Of a stretch of 22,838 nt of DNA, positions 6,120 to 19,573 are shown in pieces; position 1 is the first letter of the stretch, and each line of letters starts with the position of its first letter. The position numbers were made by a program, and so were the translations under genes. The stretch is from a virus. The notes beneath the pieces were generated by a model. That model was not told where the DNA came from, searched no databases, and saw only the letters and a list, made by a program, of their open reading frames with translations. The DNA is taken from positions 1 to 22,838 of the IMG/VR virus record IMGVR_UViG_3300032093_000892. One strand, given 5' to 3'.

Positions 6120-8153
6120 TTAGGCCCAAGAGCCGATGCTTGTGTCTGTTGTGATTGCTGAAATAGGGCTCAAAGGCCACACTTGCGCGTTTGATCCTGC
6201 GATGACGGTTACCACTGTGCCTACTGCTGTCAAACCAAATTGGAAGTTGACGGTGCCCTGTCCGCCTGCCAAAATATCGAATGTTCCACGAATTCGCAAC
6301 ACAAAAGCACCCGCTGCTGCTCCTGAGGCAGCAGAGATTGACACCAAAGTGGCAAAACCAGAGGTAATCCTGTTTTGCATCAATGTGGATGCTGTCGGAG
6401 TTACTGCAGAAGCCGCAAACATGGCAATTGACTCGTAGTCGTGCGCTGCCAATGTTGCTGTACCAGCGAGTGCGTACTGAAAGGTTTTTGCTGTCGCTGC
6501 TGTGTTGGTGACAGTAAAGTTAAGCTCATAGGCGTAACGTGTTGACGCTGCCACACTTACCGCTTTGTTGAATAGCGTTTGCGTTGTAGTAATTGCACCG
6601 TTAGCGGTGTAGTCGGCACCAAGCTGATATGTCTGCATGCTTGGAATCAAACCGCGTTGCAACGCCTGAGGTGAGAAGTACATGGAGGTGCCATCAAACT
6701 CTTGCGCCCCTTGAAAGGTAGTGGTCAGTAGGGTACCTGGGTCCCAGTCAAACGGCGCCCTTGTTGCTGTACCAGCAGCAATGTGTAGCCAACCAATTGT
6801 GTCTGCAGTAGTGCCCACACCCAATGGAACGGCTGAGGTGATAAAGTCACCAACACGCAACTTTTCAGTTGCTGCTGCACCAGCACTCATAGTGGCAATG
6901 ACAAAGTCAAATGCCTCAGATGCAAGCGTTACAGCTGTTGCCACACTAGACAACACAACGCCTATTTCATTGACACCATTGGATGTCTCAGTTTCTAGTT
7001 CAATAGAATTGCCAATTCCAATTGCCGGCACACCACTGGTGGTGTGCGTCAGGCGAAGCATTGAACTGACTGTGTTTGTTGCTGTGTCATTCAGCACAGG
7101 TTGCAGGGTGACTGCAGGTGTGGTTGTATTGATACCCACACGCGCGGTTTCTGTCGCTGTGCCACTTTTCAAGCGCATGACCTCTGTACTCGCCACGCCT
7201 TGTTGCATAACAGCAAGGCCCATGTCAAAGTTTTCAGAGCCAAGGGTAACAGCGGTTGCAGTAGTGTAAATGGCACCGCCTAATTTATTGGTGCCACTGG
7301 TTGTTTCTGTTTGAAAATCAATTGCTGTGCCAATGCCTACAGCAGGTGTTCCACTGGTTGTGTGCGAAAAGCGGCCTGCAGAACTAATGGCGTTGGTTGA
7401 AGCATCATCAACCACTGCTTCAATAGCAGCACCGGGTGTGCTTGTGCCAATGCCCAACTTCTTGTCTTGTGTAAACCTTGCAACCTCAGCTACCGCTGCC
7501 CCACTGCTCATCAAGTTGACTGCTAGTTGGAAGTCTTCCGCACCTGAACTCACACTGGTTGTGACTGCAGAAAGTGTAGCACCCAATTCATTGTTGCCAG
7601 CTGCTGTCTCTGTTTGAAACCCAATTGCTGTGCCAATGCCAGCACCTGGGACACCTGATGTGGTGTGCGTTGCCCTGATAACCTCAGTTACTGTGTTGTT
7701 GTTTGCGTCATCTGTGACTGCTTGCACCGCTGTTGCAGGACTTGCTGTGCCCACACCCAACCGCTTGGTTGAAGTTATGCGGGCTACCTCAGTAAGTGTG
7801 CCCCCAAGCGTCCGGACCACTACATCGAACGCCTCATTGGGCGCAGTAAGGTCGGTAGACACAGATTGAATGACAGAGCTTGTCTGTACACCCGACAACG
7901 ATTCAGTTGCAAATGCAAGCCCGGTACCAATACCAATTGCAGGCGTGCCAGTTGTTGAATGGGTAATGGTCACCACATTGGTGACGCCATTGGTGACGCC
8001 ATCATCAACGGTGAAGTTGGGTTGTGTGCTTGTAAAAGTCTTGATCTGCGTCGCTGTCAATTTGACAGAGGTTGCTGACTGCACTGCCTCAAATTGCTCA
8101 AGCCCTGTTAAGGCTGTGCCTGAAGGTAAACTGGGTATCGTTACGTATGCCAT
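6120..8153 (-). CDS. Repeat-built tail fibre/appendage protein
   Basis: 677 residues, ATG 8153, two bases after the upstream stop. The ribosome site is weak, so translational coupling is likely. The N-terminal 45 residues (YVTIPSLPSGTALTGLEQFE) resemble a fibre anchor. Residues about 48-455 are four tandem repeats of about 100 residues with the core pattern HTTSG.PA.GIGT.I.F.TET..G.N..G, then E.FD, then EV.R....K.LG(V/I)GT.(S/T)P. The C-terminal part (about 480-677) holds FDGTSMYFSPQALQRGLIPSMQ and a beta-rich sequence that resembles the head of other phage appendage proteins. The GIGT.(S/T)P pattern is shared with the fibre at 2523-4400, so both may derive from one shaft module. It is likely a virion fibre or spike; its position and target are inferred. 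Confidence 0.82.
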   Translation of the reverse strand: MAYVTIPSLPSGTALTGLEQFEAVQSATSVKLTATQIKTFTSTQPNFTVDDGVTNGVTNVVTITHSTTGTPAIGIGTGLAFATESLSGVQTSSVIQSVSTDLTAPNEAFDVVVRTLGGTLTEVARITSTKRLGVGTASPATAVQAVTDDANNNTVTEVIRATHTTSGVPGAGIGTAIGFQTETAAGNNELGATLSAVTTSVSSGAEDFQLAVNLMSSGAAVAEVARFTQDKKLGIGTSTPGAAIEAVVDDASTNAISSAGRFSHTTSGTPAVGIGTAIDFQTETTSGTNKLGGAIYTTATAVTLGSENFDMGLAVMQQGVASTEVMRLKSGTATETARVGINTTTPAVTLQPVLNDTATNTVSSMLRLTHTTSGVPAIGIGNSIELETETSNGVNEIGVVLSSVATAVTLASEAFDFVIATMSAGAAATEKLRVGDFITSAVPLGVGTTADTIGWLHIAAGTATRAPFDWDPGTLLTTTFQGAQEFDGTSMYFSPQALQRGLIPSMQTYQLGADYTANGAITTTQTLFNKAVSVAASTRYAYELNFTVTNTAATAKTFQYALAGTATLAAHDYESIAMFAASAVTPTASTLMQNRITSGFATLVSISAASGAAAGAFVLRIRGTFDILAGGQGTVNFQFGLTAVGTVVTVIAGSNAQVWPLSPISAITTDTSIGSWA
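6790..8012 (-). repeat. Four tandem ~100-residue protein repeats
   Basis: Repeat units begin near residues 48 (TVDDGVTN), 146 (VTDDANNN), 247 (VVDDASTN) and 353 (VLNDTATN) of the fibre protein, giving spacings of about 98, 101 and 106 residues. On the plus strand the recurring DNA hallmark is a version of GGTGTGCCACTGGT(G/T)GTGTG near each unit. Copies are diverged, so this is an old duplication under selection and not a recent expansion. Confidence 0.8.
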
Positions 8154-13101: not shown

Positions 13102-15612
13102 TTAAGGATTGGGGTTGATGCCTGTGCCGGTTGAGTAGCCAATTTTCTCGCCACTCTGAACTTCAAGTGCCGCCAATTGCTTGGCAGTTTGGTTGTCTTC
13201 TGAGTTTGTGAAGATGCGGGTTTGGTTGTCTACATCGTTGCGTGCATCTTCTGCCTGTTGGCGCATTTGTTCGCGTGCCAATTCTGCTTGTTGACGCTGC
13301 TGTTCCATGGCAAGCAACGCTTGGCGCTCTTCTTGCTTGTCTGCCATTTCTGCCTGCTTGATTGCCATGTTGGCCTGATCTGCTGCCTGTTTGCGTTCCA
13401 CTTCCTGTTTGGCAATGTCCGCTTTGGGATCGCCCATGTTGGGAGGTGCCATGGATTGCAAAACCTGCACTGCCTGTTCGATGATGGGCGGCAATGCTTG
13501 CAATGATTCGTTGACTTCCTTCACCACTGATTGACTTGCCGCTGCCATGACTTGGTCGAAAGCTTTCTTCTCCTCTGTGCTTGCCTTGACCAGCAGCTTC
13601 TCAATGGGTTGACCAGCAGCTTCTGATGCCACATCCACCATTCTACTGACATACCACAGCACCATGTGCTCCCGCAAATGCTCAAGTAGGATGGGAATGG
13701 CTGTGGGTGCTGCTACTCTGCTTGCCCCGAGCACAGGGCTGGTCAAGAAGTCAAGGTGCACTTGGATGTGGGCAAGGTGATCTTGTTCTGGGAATGCTGC
13801 AACAGGTCTACTCATACTAGCTGCCACATTTTCATTGACTGCATTCATTTCTTTTACTTCAGGCTGTGGCAGGAGCAAAGATTCACCGTCAGGCACTTTG
13901 AGTTGCTTCAGCAACATCTTTTCAACTTCACGCGCGTTGTACAAGCCTGGGTGAGTATCTGAACGCTGAACTATCGTTTGCACCTGAGCAAAGCGCTGAG
14001 TGTCACTGTAAATGTTGGGATCAGATACGGGCACCACATTCATTGGGCCTTCAAAGTCCTTGCGATACGCCAGCAGCTCACCCGCGTCATCATAGATTTC
14101 TTGCTCATCCATGTAGAAGCGGTTGATGCGGTAGAGGACATTTAACAAGCGACCCATCGCGTCATGCACTCGCATGTGGATGGCAGAGAACACAGTCATG
14201 CCCTGTTCCATGCGCGCAAGTGTAGTGCCAACAGGTGTGTTGGCGTTGCTGTCCGCTAAGTCCTCAAATGTCGTTCTGACTACGCCTTTGCCTGCGTCAA
14301 TCAAAAAGCCCATCAACTGAAATAGTACAGCAGAGGGTGGGTTGAATGGCATGGGCATCATTACTTTGCGAATGTCATCCTGCCCAAACGAGCCCTCTAT
14401 CTCATGCACCTCAGTTGGGTCAATCCGGTCTGTCTGCCCACCAGAGCCACCTTTGAGTTTGAGTAGGCCTGGGAAGTTGTTGATATGGGCTGAGTCAAGC
14501 AAAGAGCGCAAAGCGCCAGTGGATGCTGCTGACAAACCACCAATCATGTGAGTCAGGCCAATGGGGTAAGCTCCGCGCCATGGAACAAATGGGAATTCGA
14601 TGATGTGCATCAGCTCATCCATCAACTTATCTTCCTCTTCCCAATTGCGGTAGATGGCTAGCACCTTTTGTGTGCTCTTGTCTACTGAAATGATGTATGG
14701 GGCTGGACCATCTGTGTCATCTTCCACATCGTAGTAAACAGCAATCTCGAAAATGGTTCGCAAGCCATCGGTGTTATACCCATCTGACTGGCGTCCTTCT
14801 ATTTTGTCATTTGCTGTCTCTGCCTTAGATACTTCTGGGGTATGGGGCTCAGGAGTCAGCTCGATGTCTCGGTACATGCCTGACTTCACCCGTTGACCAT
14901 ACTCCAACTTGGTGATGTACTGCACATGCGTCTTGCGTTCTGCTGTGTAGAAGTTGGTAGCAGCAAATGGCAGCAAAATGTCGTCTGATGAGACGAACAT
15001 GGGCAATGGGCGTTTGCGTTTTTGGTCCCATGTGAGTTTGATGTACTGCACACCAGACAACGGCATTTGGGTGGACATCTGCTCAAGCTCTGCTCTAAAC
15101 TCTGGCATCTGTTTGGTCATTTGCCAGTTGAGGAACTTGGTGATGCGTTCTGCCTTCTTGTACTTGTCTTTAGTCACACTGCCAATGATGTCTTGGCGAG
15201 CTGGACCTGTGGGTGGAAAGATCTCTTTCATCACCCGAGCAGAAAAGTCAACGCATGCCTCTGTCAGCATGGGATGCACTACTTTGGATGCACCGGTGAA
15301 TGAGGCGCCACCTGGGGCGTCATCACCTAAACCTGTTCGCCTAATGCCTTCCTCATACTGCTCATCCCGACGCTTCCGCGCCTCTTTATCCTTCTCAACC
15401 AACTCACACAAGTCAGCACCTATGATGGCAAGTTCGCCCTCTGGCATGTCCTCTGCTATGTTGGCATAAAACTCTGACTCACCAAGCAATGGTGCTTGGC
15501 TAATCTTAACCATTGCACCACCATCTTCTGTGTCCTTCACATCTTCATCATCGTTCTCAATGGGCATCATCTCGCCCAGTTGGTCTTCCATTGTGTCGTC
15601 TGTGTCAGCCAT
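13102..15612 (-). CDS. Portal protein
   Basis: 836 residues, ATG 15612 with AAAGGA upstream, 12 bases after the TerL stop. Features are an acidic N-terminus, then RRDEQYEEGIRRTGLGDDAPGG, HPMLTEACVDFSARVMKEIFPPTGPAR, AYPIGLTHMIGGLSAASTGALRSLLDSAHINNFPG, VRTTFEDLADSNANTPVGTTLARMEQGM and the helical IHMRVHDAMGRLLNVLYRINRF. These fit the large portal type of podovirus-like phages (P22 gp1 is about 725 residues). The last 150 residues are a long Gln/Ala/Glu-rich coiled coil (KQAEMADKQEERQALLAMEQQ). The portal forms the dodecameric channel for DNA entry and exit, binds TerL, and nucleates head assembly. The location right after TerL supports the call. Confidence 0.88.
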   Translation of the reverse strand: MADTDDTMEDQLGEMMPIENDDEDVKDTEDGGAMVKISQAPLLGESEFYANIAEDMPEGELAIIGADLCELVEKDKEARKRRDEQYEEGIRRTGLGDDAPGGASFTGASKVVHPMLTEACVDFSARVMKEIFPPTGPARQDIIGSVTKDKYKKAERITKFLNWQMTKQMPEFRAELEQMSTQMPLSGVQYIKLTWDQKRKRPLPMFVSSDDILLPFAATNFYTAERKTHVQYITKLEYGQRVKSGMYRDIELTPEPHTPEVSKAETANDKIEGRQSDGYNTDGLRTIFEIAVYYDVEDDTDGPAPYIISVDKSTQKVLAIYRNWEEEDKLMDELMHIIEFPFVPWRGAYPIGLTHMIGGLSAASTGALRSLLDSAHINNFPGLLKLKGGSGGQTDRIDPTEVHEIEGSFGQDDIRKVMMPMPFNPPSAVLFQLMGFLIDAGKGVVRTTFEDLADSNANTPVGTTLARMEQGMTVFSAIHMRVHDAMGRLLNVLYRINRFYMDEQEIYDDAGELLAYRKDFEGPMNVVPVSDPNIYSDTQRFAQVQTIVQRSDTHPGLYNAREVEKMLLKQLKVPDGESLLLPQPEVKEMNAVNENVAASMSRPVAAFPEQDHLAHIQVHLDFLTSPVLGASRVAAPTAIPILLEHLREHMVLWYVSRMVDVASEAAGQPIEKLLVKASTEEKKAFDQVMAAASQSVVKEVNESLQALPPIIEQAVQVLQSMAPPNMGDPKADIAKQEVERKQAADQANMAIKQAEMADKQEERQALLAMEQQRQQAELAREQMRQQAEDARNDVDNQTRIFTNSEDNQTAKQLAALEVQSGEKIGYSTGTGINPNP

Positions 15613-15624
15613 TTGCTGTGTCCT

Positions 15625-17097
15625 TTATGCGGCGTATGGGTTATGGCGGGCGATCACTGGCTTGCGAGGTCTAGCTTCTTTGACGGGCAAGGTGACAGCC
15701 ATTTGGTTGCGGTCAGCAAGTAGGCGGAGGGCTTGAGTAGTAGCATCAACAAAGTCATCATGCTTGATTGAACCTTCACCATGGAAACTGCAAACCTGAG
15801 TGATTAAAGGATCTGCCCAGGAGCGTGGCATGCCAGGACGCTTTTCCGATTCCACTACCCAGACATGTCCATGAGCAAAAAGGTGAGATACGGCATGCAG
15901 TCGCTGAAGTTTGTCTGCCCTGCCTGGATTATAAGGGTATGCCAAGATATCTTCACGCGCAAGCATCTGTCTCAAAGAAATCCCTGACCCTTTGTCCTCA
16001 ATCACCAGCAGGTCAACTGACTTGCCACCTAGGAGTGATTGCTTAGGACCAACCAATGGTTGAATCATGGGCCTTAAATCCTCATCTCCGTATTTGACTT
16101 TATACTCTTTCTTTACCCGTTCAATGAGGTCTGGCAACCCAAGGTGATCTTGCCAGCAGTCAAGTAACAGGAAGTTCGGTCGCTTGTCATGCCGGAACAA
16201 TCCCCAGACAGAGCATGCTGTTGGGTCTGAGTCATGTGTCTTTTTGTCCGTTGTCTTTTCAGTGAACGCTGTGTCCAACGACATGACTATGTACTCGAAG
16301 CCTGGCAATGGCTTGTCTGCAGGCCATAACTTGAACTGGCTTCTCTTCACTATGCCTGACTCTTCTGGGTCTATGACCTCAGCATAGATCTCTTGTCTTC
16401 CCAACTGTGTGCCCTCATACTGCGACAGCTGGTCAATGAATGACTTGGCTAAGTTGTCTTTGTTCTCATAGGTTGACCCGCGAGTCACATAGACAGAGCC
16501 TTTCTTCTTCTCTCCATCCTTAATAAGTTTCCTTACCAACTCAATAGGCCTTGGAGTGGTTGTGACTACTACCTGTGGGTGTTCGCCCAGGCGCAATCCA
16601 AACTTCATCATGTCCCATGTCTCATCTGCATATTGCCATGCTGCCAACTCATCGCACCACACACGGTGATGCTGTGGGCCACGAAGTCGATCTGGTTCCT
16701 GTGCTGAAAAACCTTTGATGACTGATCCATTCTCTAAAATGATTTCTGATATCGTTCGGTTGTAGGACCTGATGATGGTTTCAGGTAGCACAGACAGCAT
16801 GCCTGATTCACCCTCAATGCAGGTGTCTCGAATGTCACCAGAGGTTGGTGCAATGATGGAACAACGGGAACCTGGGTGTTGGGTAGCATACCAAGCGGTG
16901 TCCTCCGCCCCTGTCCTTGTCTTCCCAAACCCTCGGCCTGCCAAGATCAACCAGACATCCCAATCACCAGCAGGTGTTCGTTGATTGTCCCTTGCTGTTG
17001 CTAGCCATCTCATGCGCCATGCCAACAGCGTCAGATCAAACACCGACAACTCAGCAAGTGAGCTGTCTAAGTTGTTTGGGTCAATGGCTACTGTCAC
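15625..17097 (-). CDS. terL: Terminase large subunit (packaging ATPase and nuclease)
   Basis: 490 residues, ATG 17097 overlapping the upstream stop by 4 bases. Walker A is GRGFGKT at residues 54-60, Walker B is VWCDE at 146-150, and the coupling motif TTTPRP lies at 179-184. The RNase H-like nuclease domain follows, with candidate acidic residues in MSLDTAF (D275), LLLDCW (D313), VIEDKGSG (E367/D368) and HDDFVDA near the end. It pumps DNA into the procapsid through the portal and cuts the concatemer. All core motifs are intact and the length is ordinary for the family. The upstream partner is the small-subunit candidate. Confidence 0.95.
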   Translation of the reverse strand: MTVAIDPNNLDSSLAELSVFDLTLLAWRMRWLATARDNQRTPAGDWDVWLILAGRGFGKTRTGAEDTAWYATQHPGSRCSIIAPTSGDIRDTCIEGESGMLSVLPETIIRSYNRTISEIILENGSVIKGFSAQEPDRLRGPQHHRVWCDELAAWQYADETWDMMKFGLRLGEHPQVVVTTTPRPIELVRKLIKDGEKKKGSVYVTRGSTYENKDNLAKSFIDQLSQYEGTQLGRQEIYAEVIDPEESGIVKRSQFKLWPADKPLPGFEYIVMSLDTAFTEKTTDKKTHDSDPTACSVWGLFRHDKRPNFLLLDCWQDHLGLPDLIERVKKEYKVKYGDEDLRPMIQPLVGPKQSLLGGKSVDLLVIEDKGSGISLRQMLAREDILAYPYNPGRADKLQRLHAVSHLFAHGHVWVVESEKRPGMPRSWADPLITQVCSFHGEGSIKHDDFVDATTQALRLLADRNQMAVTLPVKEARPRKPVIARHNPYAA

Positions 17098-17435
17098 TTG
17101 CCGCTCAGTTTGCTCATTGCTTGGGAGATCTCATCTATCAGCTTTAGGCGAACCTCAATTGGGTTTCCATCAGCACCTGTGACCTCTATCGACCTGCGCT
17201 TGGAGTGCCCATACTGGACAACCTCTTTCAGCGCATCTTTCCTAACAGCAACAGGAAGGTTTTTGTCAAAAGCGATTTCGGCAAGCTCAGTCAATGGATC
17301 ACCAAACTTGTCAATGATGGATTCCCAAGTGTCTTGCTGTGTCTTGCGCTTGGATGTGCGCGCAGCTGGGATGCCAGGAGTAGCAGCAGATAGTAGTGAA
17401 GCAGCTGGCTTCAAGTCAGGTGGCATTTTATCCAT
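17094..17435 (-). CDS. Putative terminase small subunit
   Basis: 113 residues, ATG 17435. No clear Shine-Dalgarno is visible; ATG 17426 three codons in is an alternative. The stop overlaps the TerL start (ATGA). The N-terminus is Pro/Ala-rich. The middle is helical (DTWESIIDKFGDPLTELAEIAFDKNLPVAVRKDALKEVVQYG), followed by KRRSIEVTGADGNPIEVRLK and a short helical tail. The last pattern is seen at the end of several phage small terminases and their neighbours. Position directly before TerL is the main reason for the call. The small subunit would bind the packaging site and regulate TerL. It is the first gene of the virion operon, just past the AT-rich non-coding region. Confidence 0.7.
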   Translation of the reverse strand: MDKMPPDLKPAASLLSAATPGIPAARTSKRKTQQDTWESIIDKFGDPLTELAEIAFDKNLPVAVRKDALKEVVQYGHSKRRSIEVTGADGNPIEVRLKLIDEISQAMSKLSGK

Positions 17436-17466
17436 ACGACAAAAGGTGTGAAGTTAATTTCGTGCC

Positions 17467-17472
17467 ATTATA
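17467..17472 (-). promoter_or_regulatory. TATAAT -10 candidate upstream of terminase genes
   Basis: A perfect TATAAT on the minus strand lies 31 bases before the ATG of the small terminase candidate. No recognisable -35 hexamer occurs at 15-18 bp and there is no TGn extension. The promoter may need an activator, or may be chance in AT-rich DNA. Confidence 0.35.
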
Positions 17473-17501
17473 ACTACAACTTCAAACAAATTGCTACCAC
17501 C

Positions 17502-17518
17502 TTATACACGTACGTGAA
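17502..17518 (-). repeat. Palindromic motif copy A (TTCACGTACGTGTATAA)
   Basis: Read on the minus strand, this contains the perfect palindrome CACGTACGTG and points toward the terminase genes. Copy B at 17716-17728 on the plus strand is identical apart from lacking the central four bases. The pair flanks the TTAGC repeats and faces outward. Confidence 0.6.
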
Positions 17519-17592
17519 CCAAACCATAAAATTTTTTATATCACCACAAGAAAAAGCGTTGCAGCTAAGCCATTGTTAGCAATCAGTAACAT

Positions 17593-17634
17593 ATTAGTAC
17601 TTATTAGCATTTATTAGTACTGCTATTAGCAAAT
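17593..17634. repeat. Tandem 20-22 bp repeat with TTAGT/TTAGC
   Basis: Unit 1 (17593-17612) is ATTAGTACTTATTAGCATTT. Unit 2 (17613-17634) begins ATTAGTACTG and ends TATTAGCAAAT, differing by a 2-bp insertion and a few bases. Single TTAGC copies flank both units. The arrangement looks like iterons for a DNA-binding protein. Confidence 0.65.
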
Positions 17635-17715
17635 AATCTTTGTTTCCGTGCATATTATTAGCATATTAGCATTTTCAACTTTTTTCTGAAAAAAAAATAA
17701 TTGGTGTTCTCTTTC

Positions 17716-17728
17716 TTCACGTGTATAA
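17716..17728 (+). repeat. Motif copy B (TTCACGTGTATAA)
   Basis: Plus-strand copy of the motif at 17502-17518, without its central TACG. It lies between the stop of the nuclease gene and the AT tract and points away from the TTAGC repeats. Confidence 0.55.
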
Positions 17729-17756
17729 ACCACTAAAAAACTTTCCCCACCCATCA

Positions 17757-18191
17757 CTAAATGCTTGATTTATATGAAACGGCCTCAAACCCCTCACAAA
17801 GACTTAACATAAATGCCCTCAATTCCACCTCCCAATTCACCATCTCAACCATGGAATATTGATTGATTTCGCCTGCCAAACTGCCAGGAATTGCAAAAAA
17901 ACGGGTATCCAACTGCACTAAAACCCAACTTTTGCCGCCATTTTTGGTCTGATTGAAGTGCCAATTGACCTGTTCCTGTGTCAATCCACGCTGACTTTTG
18001 AACACTATAGTTTCCTTTTTGGCGGGCACCTTACCATGTTTAAGCTCTATCCATCCCTCCATCCCTTTCACACAAAAGTTGGCATCTGGCATACCATCAA
18101 TCACCCCGTTCTCCACCCTCTCCCATCTTCCCGGCAAATCTTGTTTGCGGACGATATCCCTCAAACGGTTCCACAATAACTTTTCTGACAT
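17757..18191 (-). CDS. PD-(D/E)XK (VRR-NUC/resolvase-like) nuclease
   Basis: 144 residues, ATG 18191 with AAGGA 8 bases upstream. The catalytic pattern is visible: acidic residues in WERVENG (E24, E27), GMPD with D36, and WIELK with E49 and K51, giving E...PD-x12-E-x-K. A beta strand follows (SWVLVQLDTRFFAIP). These features place it with small phage PD-(D/E)XK endonucleases of the VRR-NUC or Holliday-junction-resolvase kind, which cut branched DNA in recombination and before packaging. It is the last gene of the accessory operon, just before the AT-rich region. Its first 95 bases overlap the end of the small membrane-protein gene in another frame. Confidence 0.78.
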   Translation of the reverse strand: MSEKLLWNRLRDIVRKQDLPGRWERVENGVIDGMPDANFCVKGMEGWIELKHGKVPAKKETIVFKSQRGLTQEQVNWHFNQTKNGGKSWVLVQLDTRFFAIPGSLAGEINQYSMVEMVNWEVELRAFMLSLCEGFEAVSYKSSI

Positions 18192-18758: not shown

Positions 18759-18935
18759 CTACTGTACTCCTTTAATCTCTAACCCAACCTGCAACCCATC
18801 GGCATACCCCTTTGAATACGCCGCCTCCAACGCCTGTTGCAACACCACAATCTGCGTCCGCATCATCGTCTGTTCCTGCAACACTTTATCTATCTGCGCA
18901 TCCAAATCGTCCATTACTTTTGTCATTTCACTCAT
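18759..18935 (-). CDS. 58-residue coiled-coil protein
   Basis: 58 residues from ATG 18935, where a good GGAG site and a 4-base overlap with the upstream stop (ATGA) favour it over the upstream ATG 18965, which lies inside the previous gene. It is almost wholly helical with heptad spacing (VMDDLDAQIDKVLQEQTMMRTQIVVLQQALEAAYSKG), ending in YADGLQVGLEIKGVQ. It is probably a small oligomeric coiled coil. No function is evident. Confidence 0.72.
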   Translation of the reverse strand: MSEMTKVMDDLDAQIDKVLQEQTMMRTQIVVLQQALEAAYSKGYADGLQVGLEIKGVQ

Positions 18936-19573
18936 ATGCTTTTCTCCTGTATATCGTAGAACCAATCATCGCCTGCCGCCCATTTCCGTGTCCCATCTAC
19001 CGACCAAAAAACCTGTGCTGCCTGAAAATCTGGAAACTTGGTTTCCGCTGCTATCAATGATTGGTCATACCAAAGGCAACGGTTGTTGGGTTGGCAGGCA
19101 AACTGTCCATTGTCCAGCTTAATCCAGTTGAACGACTTATGCTCCTCTGCCTGCTCTGTAAACCCTGTGTCCAAATCCATGCCATCAGCGCAGAAATCAA
19201 CTGTAAACATGTACTGCCCAAAGTGCCATTGCTTGTCTTTGCCCAAGAACTTCACACCCAGATTGCGCAAACCAATCTTCTCAATGATGGTGAACCTGTA
19301 TCCCATACAGTCCCACAGTTGTAAGGTGTCAATGGGCAAGTAAGGACCCTGCGAATCCTCTGTGTGCCAAACATAGGCATGGATAGGCAACTTGTCGTAC
19401 AGCGCACCATACGCTGGCAGCAACGATTCAATGCGAAACACCTGCCCCCTCAACGCCTTAAGGCTCACCCAAATGGCTGGCTCCAATTCACCATGCCCCT
19501 TTTGAAAGTTGTAAAGGAATTCCCGCTTCACAAAGCATTTGATGGGCGGCAATGCTGCCACTATGTAACTCAT
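18932..19573 (-). CDS. Conserved unknown phage protein, 213 residues
   Basis: 213 residues, ATG 19573 within the recurring GGAGAAGAATACATGA junction. It begins MSYIVAALPPIKCFVKREFLYN and contains HGELEPAIWVSLKALRGQVFRIESLLPAYGALYDKLPIHAYVW, LPIDTLQLWDCMGYRFTIIEK, DFCADGMDLDTGFTEQAEEHKSFNWIKLDNGQFACQPNNRCLWYD. It is rich in aromatics and looks like a well-folded soluble protein. I recall related hypothetical proteins in environmental phages (the conserved YGALYDKLPI region) but no function. It is the longest complete gene of the accessory cluster. Confidence 0.82.
   Translation of the reverse strand: MSYIVAALPPIKCFVKREFLYNFQKGHGELEPAIWVSLKALRGQVFRIESLLPAYGALYDKLPIHAYVWHTEDSQGPYLPIDTLQLWDCMGYRFTIIEKIGLRNLGVKFLGKDKQWHFGQYMFTVDFCADGMDLDTGFTEQAEEHKSFNWIKLDNGQFACQPNNRCLWYDQSLIAAETKFPDFQAAQVFWSVDGTRKWAAGDDWFYDIQEKSI

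Follow-up and report, generated by a model that had tools for sequence, protein, structure and literature searches.

The stretch analysed here is a 22,838-base virus record (IMG/VR record IMGVR_UViG_3300032093_000892; the whole of it is called the window), and the element in question lies in the gap at 17436-17756, directly upstream of the putative small-terminase gene terS. The large open reading frames (ORFs) on either side of this gap are all on the minus strand, and their content makes it the border between the end of a replication block and the head of a virion block that run in the same direction. Judged by sequence comparison, the gap is copy B of a duplicated, putatively cis-acting element, the other copy of which, A, heads the replication genes ~20 kb upstream. 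By analogy, we tentatively read A and B as paired replication sites resembling oriL and oriR of Bacillus phage SPP1, and assign this reading a probability of about 0.48. The presence of two copies, their conservation, the inverted symmetry in a sister group, their position and the accompanying strand skew are direct observations. All relatives used in the analysis are assembled contigs.

The element and its second copy

The element is ~230 bases long and sits in DNA of low GC content (0.318 for the gap and 0.491 for the whole window; of 2252 sliding windows, 7 are this low). Seven TTAGY words occur on the plus strand (at 17576, 17594, 17604, 17614, 17626, 17658 and 17666), six of which extend to TATTAGY, which is RCTAATA when read in the direction of terS. 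None of 2000 dinucleotide shuffles of the 321 bases contained seven of the shorter words (mean 1.83, maximum 6) or six of the longer ones (mean 0.19, maximum 2). An earlier note on this DNA, made from the letters alone, had described the low GC content and these seven repeats, and both hold; its single inverted word has to be amended, since RCTAA is found twice, at 17564 and 17732. The near-tandem 20-bp unit that it listed spans 17592-17631 (1.9 copies, 90% matches), its perfect palindrome is CACGTACGTG at 17507-17516, and of its two outward-facing motifs, TTCACGTACGTGTATAA (17502-17518, minus strand) has a single match in the window at up to three mismatches, and CACGTGTATAAA occupies 17718-17729 of the plus strand. 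A default repeat finder reported nothing in the region, as its seed exceeds the length of these words.

A TerS scan of viral contigs returned 18 loci, 17 of which extend upstream of the gene, and nine sequences were aligned (alignment A1). The region is present in all 17 of these relatives, many of them near-identical, which answers the first check that the earlier note had proposed, namely that relatives should keep the repeats. Copy B has a GC content of 0.22-0.38, compared with 0.38-0.51 for the contigs that carry it. In the two divergent loci L014 and L018 (TerS identity 57 and 59%), the A/T tracts and the TATAAT box are retained, and so are the iteron words, albeit with fewer exact copies; B of L018 lacks the cluster of three exact RCTAATA. 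The outer arms change together, reading TATACACGTG in the window form, TATACACGAGGAAAG in L018 and TTTTATATATAG in L014. RCTAATA clusters of five and six occur in contig G002, and copy A of contig G003 carries the words in mixed orientation.

A motif scan of longer contigs located the second copy, A, 16-22 kb upstream of B and before the replication genes. All 11 contigs tested gave A as the top-scoring match to B along their whole length, at 64-99 (80 for G013, the flipped case), while the best shuffles scored 20-44. Contig G002 agrees with the window along 21,030 bp, with two mismatches, and carries A ~20 kb upstream of B; the phage of the window thus has both copies, while the window itself contains only B. 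Both copies are intergenic in the contigs that were read. In G002, copy A is preceded by a terminator-like hairpin and followed by TTGGAC-17-TATAAT (hairpin and promoter were recognized by eye) and by a gene for an SNF2-type helicase. The word TTATCCACA, which we take to be the DnaA-box consensus, is kept in the A copies of the window-clade loci L296, L297, L298 and L300 and is absent from B.

Within each of three window-clade lineages A and B are 67.4-72.3% identical, while between these lineages identity is 53.3-58.6% for A with A and 59.6-64.4% for B with B; one of the three A-B pairs (L299 with L018) joins two contigs from the same sample that are assumed to represent one phage. Inside the sister group this signal is absent (69.7% within against 68.5% between genomes, with a genome's own B ranking first in 2 of 8 cases), and concerted evolution of A and B is therefore not claimed in general.

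Inverted symmetry in the sister group

The sister group was reached via the large terminase (69-79% identity), with 80 of 223 relatives covered, window-clade loci included. Here the gap contains an inverted repeat whose arms, ~50 bp each, enclose a core with CGAACGAACGA-like words; outward-facing boxes like CTATAGSGWWTTTG stand 145-156 bp apart. The 53 sister-group terS loci comprise 44 with a scorable core, two (L137 and L140) without an exact core match and seven that are cut. The 46 uncut loci yield 39 distinct B sequences, each of which is more symmetric than all of 100 shuffles. The A copies and the window-clade copies were shuffled with the boxes masked: 11 of 14 distinct A copies beat all 200 shuffles, and the remaining three were reached by 1 (L218), 9 (L205) and 40 (L213). 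The box-pair pattern has 46 occurrences in the viral collection, and conservation of the boxes in element lists drawn from it is circular because both boxes were used to choose them. A further pattern, TATACACG...CGTGTATA, hit 60 stretches in viral contigs, most of them chance matches by our own estimate, and only those already known were used.

A scan for the core in 15 contigs found two places and no third in nine (G004, G005 and G007-G013). G016 showed A alone, owing to a degenerate B core, while G006 and G014 extend to B only, and G001-G003 belong to the window clade and lack this core. The core lies one way in 37 of the 44 scorable B copies and is flipped between the arms in seven; the cores of L137 and L140 look flipped by eye. 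The flipped cores are easier to reconcile with a symmetric platform than with a cut site or a promoter that fires in one direction.

This bears on the proposal that the element is a packaging site (cos or pac) recognized by the small terminase, whose gene is its neighbour. The element does adjoin the putative terS, repeats flanking a core occur at packaging sites, and in seven of the 53 sister-group terS loci the contig stops no more than 300 bp upstream of the gene. Such ends would, however, also arise from assembly breaks at a duplicated inverted sequence; a packaging site is expected once per genome unit rather than as two copies 16-22 kb apart, and the flipped cores do not suit it. Contig G013 has a 123-bp end overlap and reads through B. 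We consider a packaging site improbable.

Two direct copies that bracket the replication block, each with inverted arms around an asymmetric core that can flip, would also fit a pair of site-specific recombination sites that excise or exchange the block. Yet neither the phage integrase family PF00589 nor the resolvase family PF00239 was found in any of ten contigs, some of which are fragments, whereas the controls were positive in 14 and 10 of 14 genomes, respectively. No excised form turned up, although no search was aimed at one. This explanation is as improbable as a packaging site. Least likely of all is an outward-facing pair of promoters for a T7-type single-subunit RNA polymerase, which is brought to mind by the outward arrangement and by the sister-group box CTATAGGGA, which resembles the T7 promoter class. 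The polymerase family PF00940 was detected in none of eight contigs, although the T7 record itself was positive (9.9e-110), an earlier search that lacked a positive control gave 0 of 16, and the TATAGGG form is absent from the window clade.

Strand asymmetry and possible operon control

The second check put forward in the earlier note was that GC skew should turn at the gap, and it turns close by in the six sister-group genomes tested. Along terS, the detrended cumulative skew of six sister genomes (55-58 kb) peaks at +769, +2709, +996, +786, -661 and +480 bp from B, that is, within 2.7 kb in all six and within 1 kb in five, and reaches its minimum 16.2-25.7 kb upstream, 5.0-7.5 kb from A. In five genomes the amplitude was reached by 0-4 of 2000 block shuffles, and in G010 by 81 of 2000. 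The sister genomes are related to one another, and counts such as six of six are not independent. Most long ORFs in four mapped contigs are co-directional, so that a simple change of coding strand does not account for the turn at B. In bacteria a maximum of cumulative skew is conventionally taken to look like a terminus; an origin in the strict sense consequently fits A, nearer to the minimum, better than B. The pattern is compatible with replication that starts nearer A and ends at B. The proposal of the earlier note, an origin and/or a control point of the virion operon, therefore stands as to the kept repeats and the turning skew and is shifted to A as to the strict origin, while the control point becomes the main competitor of the paired replication sites. 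As a separate observation, GC skew is strongly negative across positions ~750-2500 of the window.

From these features we infer protein binding, origin activity and a division of labour between A and B. Each copy consists of an AT-rich array of short putative binding sites between outward-facing arms, just ahead of a TATAAT-like operon box. Most likely, one phage initiator would bind both copies. A would be the active replication origin, and B would act later, as a second origin or as a barrier to forks, closing the initial replication stage and setting off the move to concatemers, as has been proposed for the SPP1 pair. In a more elaborate version, replication would fire at one copy, while the other would halt the fork and set off concatemer formation; as both copies head operons, the same protein would also couple this switch to the passage from early to late gene expression, and the unit, with a core that can be flipped, would work as a symmetric nucleoprotein platform. 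This version is in our estimate unlikely, though better placed than the packaging, recombination or T7-type explanations.

The main competitor holds that one putative regulator acts on both copies and sets an early operon at A and a late operon at B, with no start of replication at either. It is a possibility of real weight, less probable than paired replication sites. Each copy stands at the head of an operon, as a transcription element would, with a predicted TATAAT-like box before the operon that follows it. In sister-group B copies the distance from the terS-side box to the -10 element is fixed at 32-34 bp (8 of 8), as for a part of a promoter. In many sister loci a gene divergent from terS, often of 146 amino acids, starts on the far side of B, and copy A of the window clade follows the terminator-like hairpin recognized by eye. 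The -10 spacing cuts both ways, however, being fixed at sister-group B and variable elsewhere: across eight window-clade copies the distance from the arm to the -10 element ranges over 4-39 bp, and most sister-group A copies have ~65-81 bp. Conservation of the far arm extends to places where the far side has no gene start, namely A in the contigs read and B in the window clade, whose far-side neighbour, unlike that of many sister loci, points toward terS. Shared transcription control alone would also leave the skew turn at B unexplained. The TATAAT box of the virion operon itself has a poor -35 side and was missed by a consensus promoter scan; across 17300-17900 the scan gave three promoter-like sites against 2.0 expected, this conserved box not among them, and no terminator.

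It is important to point out that several observations besides the operon-head position and the fixed spacing count against paired replication sites. No initiator turned up, although no search was aimed at a G38P-like protein. The skew minimum lies 5-7.5 kb off A rather than at A. At third codon positions of plus-strand genes, skew drops across B in all six sister genomes without a step up at A; for the window-clade contigs the change across B is from +0.18 to -0.06 (G002) and from +0.43 to +0.06 (G003), and across A it is from -0.03 to +0.10 in G002, with G003 staying at 0.06. With its third-codon step at B only, the skew marks a boundary at B without singling out A, and a compositional difference between early and late genes may be all that it reflects. 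Inverted symmetry is weak in the window clade, where with the boxes masked the B copy of the window was reached by 2 of 200 shuffles, copy A of G002 by 11, A of L299 by 87, B of L010 by 170 and B of L014 by 172. The equation of the window-clade A/T tracts with the sister-group boxes is our own reading of the alignment and should be taken as provisional. Finally, the RCTAATA iterons are absent from these places in the sister group, which carries other repeats. Overall, the paired replication sites and a shared operator are compatible with each other.

Gene neighbourhood, known systems and implications

The features of the gap and its neighbours are collected in the table. The sole family match of the putative TerS protein is phrog_15261, of unknown function (E 0.00025), and its structure model is poor (mean pLDDT 60.4). 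A portal protein gene follows terS and the large-terminase gene downstream of the gap. Upstream, beyond the phrog_2165 gene and some small genes, the end of a family A DNA polymerase gene reaches the window edge. The phrog_2165 family is listed as a DNA helicase; by eye the protein is rather a small nuclease. Rfam and tRNA scans of the whole window were empty.

Table. Coordinates, strand and basis of the features in and around the gap
Feature	Position	Strand	Basis or remark
Element copy B, measured from arm to arm	17501..17731	- (read in terS direction)	Aligned relatives; best genome-wide match to A in G002
terS-side outward arm TTCACGTACGTGTATAA, containing palindrome CACGTACGTG	17502..17518	-	Motif search
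A/T tract of terS-side arm (ATAAAATTTTTTATATCA)	17526..17543	.	Read from sequence; kept in alignment A1
Further TTAGC outside the six-iteron set	17576	+	Word count
Six TATTAGY iterons (RCTAATA in terS direction)	17592..17670	+	Starts 17592, 17602, 17612, 17624, 17656, 17664
Far-arm A/T tract	17679..17703	.	Read from sequence; kept in alignment A1
Far-side outward arm with CACGTGTATAA	17716..17731	+	Covaries with other arm between lineages
TATAAT, likely -10 box of virion operon	17467..17472	-	Kept in 9/9 rows of alignment A1
Putative small terminase (terS), 113 aa	17094..17435	-	Named by position before terL
Large terminase	15625..17097	-	PF03237 and PF17289; phrog_38
144-aa phrog_2165 protein	17757..18191	-	Runs toward the element

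To the eye, the 144-aa protein next to B also looks similar to a small nuclease whose gene immediately precedes that of the SNF2 helicase in L304 and L305. Window-clade phages have the phrog_2165 gene beside B and the SNF2 helicase gene beside A, such that joining B to A would restore the L304/L305 order; this nuclease-helicase order hints that the replication block may have arrived as a circle. The block also contains, in L114 (contig G002, 3379-7526), genes for QueE, QueC, GTP cyclohydrolase and a queuine tRNA-ribosyltransferase-like protein, which belong to 7-deazaguanine DNA modification as in several isolate phages. A phrog_3704 'ferredoxin' gene is co-directional with terS in the window (18932-19573), and in L039 (2706-3338) it opposes terS directly beside B, encoding a protein 82% identical to that of the window. 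Short tandem arrays of 9, 12 and 21 bases occur at 1860-1885, 7976-8002 and 13334-13377 of the window, respectively.

Among known systems, SPP1 offers the closest parallel. As described in excerpts from two papers, its oriL and oriR lie 12-13 kb apart, one within the initiator gene and one intergenic; each has direct repeats and an AT-rich region, a single initiator, gp38 (G38P), binds both, and the second origin is thought to halt the fork and begin the concatemer stage (PMC3485210, PMC6316719). As far as these accounts go, A and B agree with the SPP1 pair in number, build and scale, being two similar sites per genome that both combine direct repeats with AT-rich DNA, and differ in that both are intergenic and at operon heads. 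The outward arms, strong inverted repeat and flipped core of the sister group form no part of the SPP1 origin description in the same excerpts.

Other separated pairs show partial likeness. The satellite phage P4 has two separated sites with shared repeats, ori and crr, both needed in cis for replication. This arrangement resembles A and B, whereas the arms, flipped core and operon-head position are unmatched in this small satellite. Phage lambda has a pair of related operators, oL and oR, before its two major operons, bound by one regulator; related regions before two operons are likewise found here, the difference being that the operons are co-directional and 16-22 kb apart.

Blastn with the window copy and with one sister copy of the element produced no convincing match among 50,697 phage records; the 38 records hit by the window region in a distant search (best E ~0.1 over 49 bases) were taken as chance. 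No gap pair clearly like A and B was seen in the isolates DSL-LC04, S0112, Me-ZS1 and ply2008005c or in the initial 50,000 bases of Caulobacter phage RW. Similar gap pairs do occur in RW, with scores as high as 52, and in S0112, with scores as high as 42; these scores lack a shuffle control, and the two pairs may yet be of the same kind. Among the titles and abstract beginnings listed in searches of open-licence PubMed Central (PMC) papers, none describes the element, which is no proof of its absence in print. Large-terminase relatives at 57-58% identity (L327, L328 and L329) lie in three bacterial metagenome bins and may be prophages or co-binned phages.

The element flags the two borders of the replication block in a phage group that is known here only as assembled contigs. 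If A and B are truly an origin pair, they would provide sequence landmarks with which read depth alone could be used to map replication in such phages, as well as a second case, beside SPP1, in which the twin origin could be tested as a switch to concatemer synthesis.
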